Below are positions 21,939 through 23,488 of a stretch of 64,000 nt of DNA, in pieces. This stretch comes from Candidatus Saccharimonadota bacterium (lineage in GTDB: Bacteria; Patescibacteriota; Saccharimonadia; Saccharimonadales; Saccharimonadaceae). The first letter of the stretch is position 1. Each line of letters opens with the position of its first letter. Where the stretch lies: NCBI GenBank assembly GCA_003246575.1, contig QJZZ01000003.1:124001-188000 (forward strand), given 5' to 3'. Below the pieces are notes generated by a model. It was not told the DNA's origin. It saw only the letters and a program-made list of their open reading frames with translations, and searched no databases. Both the position numbers and the translations under genes were made by a program.

Positions 21939-21967
21939 GAAAAATCCCGCCCCATCGTGAGGGCGGG
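21939..21967 (-). terminator. Terminator of the tRNA-like transcript
   Basis: On the minus strand CCCGCCC pairs with GGGCGGG around an 8-base loop and ATTTTTC follows. It closes the unit that starts near 22200. Confidence 0.85.
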
Positions 21968-21969
21968 GT

Positions 21970-22009
21970 GGCTGGAGACGGCGCACTAGCAGGCGCGCCG
22001 TCTCCAGCC
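21970..22009 (-). repeat. 15-bp perfect inverted repeat in the tail of the tRNA-like transcript
   Basis: Arms GGCTGGAGACGGCGC (21970-21984) and its exact complement (21995-22009) flank a 10-base loop, two bases from the terminator hairpin. Such a stem would be very stable in RNA and may protect the 3' end or be a processing site. Confidence 0.85.
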
Positions 22010-22112
22010 GTACGCAAGATCAGTGCGAGCCAAGCTCAGAAGCACGATCTCGGTACCACAGGCGAGGGTTGTCGGTCGTGCCGAAGGCGCAATCGAGTGC
22101 CGCATGAAATCG

Positions 22113-22184
22113 TCGGGTCGGGCGGATTCGAACCACCACCACCGGGAATCTCCCGGCATTCTACCTAGTTTAAACTACGTCCCG
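22113..22184 (-). ncRNA. tRNA-like element with a non-canonical anticodon arm (tRNA-Gly-like)
   Basis: Reading the minus strand from 22184: acceptor CGGGACG against CGACCCG with one A-A mismatch, TA, a D arm GTTT...GAAT with GG in the loop (GTAGTTTAA...GGTAGAAT as in many tRNA-Gly), then CCGGGAGATTCCCGG, and a standard T arm GGTGG-TTCGAAT-CCGCC and discriminator A. The anticodon hairpin lacks U33 and folds best as six pairs with a 3-base loop; if the loop is seven bases the triplet would be GAT. CCA is not encoded. TTGAAA-N16-TAAGGT lies just upstream (about 22219-22192). A decayed tRNA, a non-translating tRNA or the head of a longer RNA are all possible. Confidence 0.45.
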
Positions 22185-22225: not shown

Positions 22226-22267
22226 CAAATAAAAAAGCGCTAGGTAAGGGTGGGCATCACCTAGCGC
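22226..22267 (-). terminator. Terminator of the structured ncRNA
   Basis: On the minus strand GCGCTAGGT pairs perfectly with ACCTAGCGC over a 13-base loop, followed by TTTTTTATTTG. Strong intrinsic terminator. Confidence 0.92.
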
Positions 22268-22569
22268 CATTTTACCCTTCAACCCACACCAGAGAAGCGC
22301 ACGAACCAAACTCCACGATGGCGACGCCTGACAAGTCACTACTGAATAGTCTCTTTGAAACGGTATCCTCGAAGCTTCGAAAAGCAACGGGGGTTAAAGG
22401 GATTAGTATGCATGCAATGAGTGACCTCAAGGGTAAGCCTAGAAAGTGGAGGGTAGATACTCACTAAGCACATTGCATACAACCTAACATAGTCGAGTTC
22501 TTCCGAAGAAAAACTCTGTTAGAATAGGGGGTATAAGGTGCTTGATCACTCTCGCAAGTTGATCAATCG
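22228..22569 (-). ncRNA. Unidentified structured RNA, about 340 nt
   Basis: The unit has a consensus promoter (TTGACA-N17-TACAAT, 22604-22576) and a strong terminator but no plausible protein. Predicted helices in order: TTGATCA/TGATCAA near the 5' end; CTAACA/TGTTAG enclosing GAGTTTTTC and GAAGAACTC with a C(TTCG)G tetraloop; and TATGCAATG paired with CATTGCATGCATA. Length would suit RNase P RNA or tmRNA. However, I do not see the RNase P GAGGAAAGTCC or ACAGAA cores, a tmRNA tRNA-like end, or the SRP GGAAGNAGCA-type loop. I leave it unnamed. Confidence 0.65.
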
Positions 22570-22575
22570 CTTTGC

Positions 22576-22604
22576 ATTGTAGCAGATATTTGACAGTATG
22601 TCAA
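22576..22604 (-). promoter_or_regulatory. Consensus promoter of the structured ncRNA
   Basis: TTGACA at 22604-22599, 17-base spacer, TACAAT at 22581-22576, all on the minus strand. It overlaps the first possible dprA start codon (22598), so RNA and dprA transcription may interfere. Confidence 0.9.
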
Positions 22605-23488
22605 CAGTTTTCGACACAATTATGTCTAAAATCAATGAAATACGACCTCTGACGCATGCATATCTACAGATACTGGAGTGTATTGATAGTTTGCCCGATA
22701 CATTATATTACACCGGAAAGCTACCCTCCGAGCGCCTGCCGACTGTCGCGATCGTCGGAACGCGCAAACCAACCGCCTACGGCAGGGAAGTGACCCAGCA
22801 GCTCGCCGGAGAGCTCGCCCAGAGAGGTGTTGTCATCGTCAGTGGCCTCGCACTCGGTATCGACGCGCTCGCGCATCAAGCGGCACTCGACGTCGGCGGA
22901 CGAACGATCGCCGTTCAGGCAAACGGCCTTCATCGGATCTATCCGAACACCAATCGTCGACTCGCCGAAGCAATTCTCGCGCGCGACGGCGCTATTCTCA
23001 GCCAATACGAACCTGGATTAGAACCAATGCAGTATCGTTTTCTGGAGCGCAACCGCATCGTGAGCGGTCTCGCCGATGCGGTGATCGTTATCGAGGCAGG
23101 GCTGCGAAGCGGCACGCTTTCGACCGCGGCACATGCGCTCGCTCAGGGCAAAGATGTCTTCGCGGTACCGGGCAATATCACGAGCCCGATGAGCGCCGGA
23201 TGTAATCAACTCCTGCGCCAAGGTGCGATGCCGGTAACATCAGTTGATGACATCCTCGAATGTCTCAGTATTTCCAGCGGCACACACCCAGTACAGCAAG
23301 TCCTGCCACTCGGAACAACACCACTCGAACAAGCGATCATCGATGCACTAGCCCGAGGCGTGCGCGACGGCGACGCTATTCTCGCCACGCTACACGTCCC
23401 ACCGGACGAATTCAATACCGCACTGACGATGCTCGAAATCAACGGTGCCATCACCGCCCTCGGGGCAAACCAGTGGACTCTTCGATGA
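22598..23488 (+). CDS. dprA: DNA processing protein DprA/Smf
   Basis: 296 residues. The Rossmann-like core is intact: VAIVGTRKPTAYG, then VIVSGLALGIDALAHQAAL, ERNRIVSGLADAVIVIEAGLRSG (split conserved block) and FAVPGNI. A C-terminal winged-helix-like region follows. DprA loads RecA on incoming single-stranded DNA during natural transformation. ATG 22598 and ATG 22622 are both possible; neither has a clear Shine-Dalgarno. Its presence beside a pilin gene elsewhere in the window fits DNA uptake ability. Confidence 0.92.
   Translation: MSTVFDTIMSKINEIRPLTHAYLQILECIDSLPDTLYYTGKLPSERLPTVAIVGTRKPTAYGREVTQQLAGELAQRGVVIVSGLALGIDALAHQAALDVGGRTIAVQANGLHRIYPNTNRRLAEAILARDGAILSQYEPGLEPMQYRFLERNRIVSGLADAVIVIEAGLRSGTLSTAAHALAQGKDVFAVPGNITSPMSAGCNQLLRQGAMPVTSVDDILECLSISSGTHPVQQVLPLGTTPLEQAIIDALARGVRDGDAILATLHVPPDEFNTALTMLEINGAITALGANQWTLR

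Follow-up and report, generated by a model that had tools for sequence, protein, structure and literature searches.

Several described systems frame the RNA presented here: GOLLD and ROOL are orphan structured bacterial RNAs that occur in phages too, raiA and OLE are lineage-restricted structured RNAs, and RsaE and RoxS are C-rich trans-acting small RNAs (sRNAs), C-rich sRNAs of Gram-positive bacteria being known to bind to G-rich ribosome-binding sites. Saccharibacteria are episymbionts, reduced and with few core genes, and their hosts belong to the phylum of the actinobacteria. For Saccharibacteria and Patescibacteria, no description of a non-coding RNA, a structured RNA or a 6S RNA was found in the literature covered, outside of which most subscription journals and preprints lie. 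The PGAP annotation of a complete oral strain contains two ncRNAs only (PMC8830319).

The window, that is, the whole stretch of 64,000 nucleotides analysed here, carries a gene for a structured RNA that is conserved, has its own promoter and terminator, and occurs in single copy at a fixed site; it almost certainly represents a real family of structured RNAs that had not been catalogued before. An earlier note on this DNA had described it as an unidentified, highly structured RNA other than RNase P, SRP or tmRNA, and the fold, the strong covariation and the Rfam searches support this description. Specifically, in the window region Rfam 15 gives no family at gathering score and no convincing match even at E up to 10, except for the neighbouring tRNA-like gene, and six further loci bearing the RNA or its mini form give nothing at E up to 0.5, so that the scan proposed as a check returned no confident match to a known RNA. 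None of the models of the three excluded RNAs matches the locus; those of RNase P RNA (RF00010) and tmRNA (RF00023) find the genome's own genes elsewhere, at C3:40021-40370 (258 bits) and C3:43142-43547 (71.6 bits), respectively.

Gene boundaries, fold and covariation

The promoter that the earlier note had pointed out agrees with the consensus at 11 of 12 bases and has a TG before the second hexamer, and the pattern TTGAC...T(G/A)nTAnnnT stands at the corresponding position in 142 of the 143 homologous loci whose 3' end is complete. Since a site of such quality is expected by chance about once per 900 bases, the promoter claim rests on this conservation. At the opposite end, the 9-bp terminator stem with six T that had been proposed is present at 22267-22231 of the reverse strand (GCGCTAGGT/ACCTAGCGC, 13-base loop); it is absent from the terminator-scan list because loops longer than 8 bases fall outside the scan. 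The 345-nt transcript region folds with a minimum free energy of -112.1 kcal/mol (z -4.46), a value equalled by none of 100 shuffles, and no conserved protein frame is seen, in agreement with the earlier reading. The overlap with dprA stands only in part: the -35 region alone would overlap, and only if dprA starts at 22598, whereas the conserved dprA start (MSKIN) is at 22623.

Table 1. Features of the RNA gene and their positions in the window
Feature	Position	Strand	Remarks
RNA gene	22231..22575	-	starts directly downstream of the -10 box, ends with the T run
Promoter TTGACA-N17-TACAAT, TG preceding the -10 box	22576..22604	-	conserved at 142/143 homologous loci
Helix P1, 5' hairpin (TTGATCA/TGATCAA)	22542..22566	-	6/7 pairs changed on both sides
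Motif 1, GCACCTTATACCCCCTATT, single-stranded	22523..22541	-	nearly invariant, phage copies included
Helix P2, CTAAC/GTTAG	22484..22522	-	sequence invariant, with variable C(UUCG)G extension
Helix P3	22409..22481	-	5' strand 22481-22471, 3' strand 22419-22409; 10/11 pairs changed on both sides
P4 apical loop, 11 nt, ATCTACCCTCC	22448..22458	-	invariant core TACCCTCC
3' domain closed by P5	22275..22401	-	P5: CCCTTTAAC 22401-22393 with GTTGAAGGG 22283-22275
Terminator hairpin P7	stem 22267-22259 with 22245-22237; loop 22258-22246; T run 22236-22231	-	loop GATGCCCACCCTT

From 5' to 3', the RNA consists of P1, the single-stranded invariant GCACCUUAUACCCCCUAUU, P2, P3 around P4, P5, P6 and the terminator hairpin. 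P4, within the covarying P3, bears the invariant CUACCCUCC loop, the C(UUCG)G hairpin pointed out earlier is indeed there as the variable extension of P2, and the interior of the 3' domain varies between compact forms of about 250 nt and long forms of about 340 nt and more. Compensatory changes, the second check that had been proposed for the helices, are strong: among 28 compact full-length homologues both sides have changed in 38 of 61 pairs (0/500 shuffles), and 93.2% of the cells pair against 32-47% in slid versions, while in 24 diverse cores all five measures of covariation exceed 500 of 500 shuffles. All 9 bp of P5 form in 100 of 101 copies, with compensatory changes as well, a single position showing A-U, G-U, C-G and G-C. 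P1 and P3 covary freely, whereas the P2 stem CUAAC/GUUAG is almost invariant despite being paired.

Moreover, the terminator loop CCCACC is complementary to an upstream GGTGGG (in the window copy GGTGTGGG, 5 bp with GTGGG). A GGUGGG partner is present in 92 of the 101 copies and in 6.6% of shuffles; the CCCACC loop is invariant, and the pairing therefore draws no support from covariation. The partner may be relocated, given that the copies of the A3 alignment that lack one beside P5 have one in P6, and vice versa. The GUUAG of P2 can pair with the upstream CUAAC or with a downstream CUAAY that precedes P5 (22402-22406); switching between these two partners is possible in the host form only, the phage form being unable to do so. 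In several other families of the order (L029, L076, L084) P3 reads GUUUUAGAGC...GCUCUAAAAC or nearly so, letters with which a known type II-A CRISPR repeat also begins; the likeness is probably a coincidence.

Distribution, chromosomal site and phage-borne forms

R1, a covariance model of the core with 156 positions, finds exactly one copy per genome in 218 of the 295 genomes of the order, whose named records are Saccharibacteria, in 126 of 143 genera. The 24 genomes that it matches in a phylum-wide sample of Patescibacteria all belong to the same order, with no match in the other orders sampled. Homologues are retrieved by blastn throughout the family and beyond. Many of the listed genomes that R1 leaves unmatched fall in the genera g2, g11 and g12, and in g2 and g12 blastn recovers diverged copies (L025, L019) with the same terminator loop, P6, P5 and CCUCCAC loop. 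A scan of 84,980 species genomes for exact 22-mers gives 82 matches, and those with a lineage in their name are Saccharibacteria or Patescibacteria, with the exception of Antrihabitans sp. YC2-6, the others being titled just bacteria. A model R2 has one match in each of 229 host genomes, in which no prophage copy of the mini form is seen.

The site of the RNA on the chromosome is fixed, with topA/dprA on one side and pth on the other. Among 111 unique copies, dprA lies divergently upstream in 92, topA upstream in 63, and pth convergently downstream in 70; a gene for a ZIP transporter follows on the same strand in 20, including the window locus, where the tRNA-like gene lies between. The downstream genes differ between loci while the RNA persists, and in at least a dozen loci where dprA was not found the RNA and its promoter are kept, usually beside topA. 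The RNA is thus an independent gene at a fixed site, because it persists together with its promoter where dprA was not found. Just downstream of it on the same strand lies a gene called as tRNA-Ile(GAT) (22112-22184), whose position 33 has A in place of U and whose acceptor stem contains an A-A mismatch; it is possibly degenerate, and a canonical tRNA with a GAT anticodon loop is located at L297:4238-4311. Two strong hairpins (21946-22010, reverse strand), the second followed by a T-rich tail, lie downstream of the tRNA-like gene.

Pattern scans of IMG/VR and of genomes revealed a version of about 100 nt that comprises the P1-P4 core, carried by four phage contigs (L195, L230, L279 and L281; records of 36-41 kb) and by one prophage in an actinobacterium (L116); R2 finds one copy in each of these five records. 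The mini forms have a hairpin or a weak stem at the 5' end and continue with motif 1, P2 and P3 around a P4 with the UACCCUCC loop, and P3, which leads straight into a T-rich tail, is at the same time the terminator stem. The P3 sequences of the five are unrelated, yet they share one common fold (z -2.0 to -4.9). The phage copies suggest a minimal functional domain of about 100 nt. In four of six viral elements a RecT- or Erf-like single-stranded DNA annealing protein is encoded within about 2 kb of the RNA; the distance is about 3 kb for an exonuclease of L301 and about 4.5 kb for an Erf-like gene of the L116 prophage. That prophage, of about 45 kb, has terminase, portal, head, tape measure and integrase genes, adjoins a tRNA-Leu and has a G+C content of about 53% in an actinobacterial genome of about 64%, in which R2 finds no full-length copy. 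L199, the end of a viral contig, bears the long form, including the 5' strand of P5.

The low-G+C prophage with a Saccharibacteria-type mini RNA on contig 1 of the actinobacterium Antrihabitans sp. YC2-6 (about 992000-1040700; L293-L295) would reflect either phage exchange between the epibiont and the phylum of its host or an assembly artefact. Four of six loose viral pattern matches (L196, L197, L198 and L200) have no further part of the core and were set aside as chance matches. BLAST searches of phage records with the window RNA or with two mini forms gave no match, nor did one of plasmid records with a mini form.

Proposed function and alternatives

The RNA is predicted to be a strongly transcribed, stand-alone, trans-acting non-coding RNA that would belong to the core genome of Saccharibacteria. 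The functional core would be its 5' domain (P1, motif 1, P2 and P3/P4), in which two C-rich single-stranded stretches, both invariant, stand next to a hairpin of invariant sequence. A conserved partner, most probably a protein, may recognise this face, the RNA being either a component of a ribonucleoprotein (RNP) or a regulator of that protein. Recognition by a partner is inferred because P2 is paired and yet invariant, more than a purely structural role would account for, and exactly the 5' domain is retained in the five viral copies. The knotted P5-P7 3' domain may stabilise and end the RNA and perhaps adds a host-specific function, while the phages, which carry the 5' domain alone, might employ it to engage or titrate the same partner. 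We tentatively put a trans-acting RNA whose 5' domain binds a putative conserved partner, probably a protein and also engaged by phages, at a little under an even chance. In a bolder version, which is possible and on balance rather unlikely, the RNA would be the RNA of an undescribed housekeeping RNP present across the order, the core of which has been pirated by several phages, including the prophage of an actinobacterium, as a minimal decoy or substitute.

A protein partner is favoured over mRNA pairing, an unlikely alternative, because the antisense tests are weakly supportive at best. The latter would make the RNA a base-pairing sRNA, in which the C-rich motif 1 and the P4 loop bind in trans to the G-rich ribosome-binding sites of mRNAs, and the phage copies would reprogram the translation of phage or host. 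The C-rich single-stranded loops are a feature of base-pairing sRNAs too and, together with a few AUAGGGGG elements at ribosome-binding positions, count against the protein reading; both stretches are invariant, and they are unpaired, as such seeds would be. Of the 8 occurrences of ATAGGGGG, the complement of motif 1, 5 have the spacing of a ribosome-binding site, compared with 21 of 118 for sister octamers; with about 17 octamers inspected, this difference is not significant. The sites include a pilin gene and other genes for exported proteins, and in phage L300 AATAGGGGGTTAAGTATG belongs to the gene that follows the mini RNA. Against such pairing, start-proximal complementarity overall does not exceed that of shuffled controls, the candidate targets are conserved neither between two genomes, nor between paralogues, nor in orthologues, and a seed would not require the paired P2 and the UUAUA of motif 1 to be invariant. 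The tests for mRNA targets gave no overall enrichment and one weak octamer lead that is not conserved.

No long complement of the invariant segments occurs in the rRNA stretch, which comprises 16S and most of 23S, in the window or in 400 kb more, about half of the genome. Antisense pairing to rRNA was discarded, as the duplexes of motif 1, the P4 loop and L7 are not beyond shuffled controls; segment J, which is largely paired, has a 13-bp match to 23S just above controls. A trans-acting anti-Shine-Dalgarno sequence, with the CCCUCC of the P4 loop serving a 16S rRNA devoid of ACCTCC, was rejected too, the Shine-Dalgarno-like signals being AAGGAG/AAAGGA and not GGAGGG or GTGGAG.

As regards the translation signals themselves, the 16S rRNA gene (L297:2327-3801, corresponding to C3:56826-58300 of the window's own genome) ends with ...GGAAGGTGCGGCTGACTCAGAAATG, and no ACCTCC occurs before the 23S gene. 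In this assembly the 16S is therefore devoid of the anti-Shine-Dalgarno sequence, though Shine-Dalgarno sequences of the AAGGAG type are enriched in the order; an assembly error, an insertion or a real loss may each account for it. In the window and the Saccharibacteria loci, a -10 box (TATAAT, TATACT) dominates among the signals that precede start codons, at a distance of about 20 bases or less, and leaderless mRNAs therefore appear prevalent, AAGGAG being a minority signal (16/524 against 0 in the control stretch).

It is very unlikely that the RNA stands in for a general bacterial RNA apparently missing from the order, namely SRP RNA or 6S RNA. SRP RNA goes undetected in 80 genomes of the order by RF00169 and in the whole of this genome, the locus included, by RF00169 and RF01854, 6S RNA (RF00013) has nothing above cut-off in the order's genomes searched, and a single locus holds one universal unassigned RNA. 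These absences are limited by the sensitivity of the searches, since RF00013 is positive in only 5 of 14 control genomes and B. subtilis is not among the controls positive for RF00169. Neither model scores the region, which lacks the helix 8 features of SRP RNA (a GGAA-capped stem with an AGCA/ACC loop) and any mimic of the open promoter as in 6S RNA, and SRP RNA is not usually needed by phages. A link between the RNA and the absence of SRP RNA in the order is hypothetical. Matches to 6S RNA below the threshold, at 26-40 bits, occur in six genomes of the order (L049-L052 for four of them).

A cis-acting leader (riboswitch or attenuator) whose terminator controls the gene that follows is highly improbable: the terminator is conserved, its loop pairs with an upstream segment and the ZIP gene follows in a minority of loci, but the downstream gene is variable and often convergent, the loop is sequestered by GGUGGG with no alternative antiterminator shown, and a different stem ends the phage copies; a metal riboswitch for the ZIP gene is ruled out by synteny. 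Control of dprA through divergent, overlapping promoters, suggested by the frequent divergent neighbour, is more improbable still and is dismissed along with the leader because the RNA remains where dprA is missing, as it does in the phage copies.

Recognition by a conserved, probably proteinaceous partner is thus the preferred reading. Nearly every Saccharibacteria genome examined carries one copy and phages carry copies of the core, which points to an important cellular job exploited by viruses. An RNA that an order maintains as one copy at one locus is probably important to it, and current annotation misses it. The phage core of about 100 nt could be made and used as bait, and, with SRP RNA undetected in the order, the question arises of which general RNA-dependent process differs in this branch.

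Comparison with described RNAs

With 6S RNA (RF00013) and SRP RNA (RF00169, RF01854) the new RNA shares universal single-copy status; it differs from them in that no model matches it, its consensus fold is multi-helix and not a rod with a central bubble, and the helix 8 motif is missing. RsaE and RoxS resemble it in their C-rich unpaired stretches, own promoter and intrinsic terminator, whereas the new RNA has a far larger invariant core, an invariant paired stem and a knotted 3' domain, and no target enrichment was found for it. Like raiA and OLE, it is single-copy, highly conserved and outside the classical housekeeping set, but its architecture is different and it belongs to no Rfam family even at permissive thresholds. 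The likeness to GOLLD and ROOL consists in a complex conserved structure, the lack of a known partner and occurrence in phages; unlike these, the new RNA is much shorter, has no Rfam match in sequence or structure, is universal and vertically inherited within one order, and has a minimal form in phages that is reduced to the 5' domain. The RNA belongs, therefore, among the orphan structured RNAs, from which it is set apart by its order-wide universality and its minimal phage-borne form.
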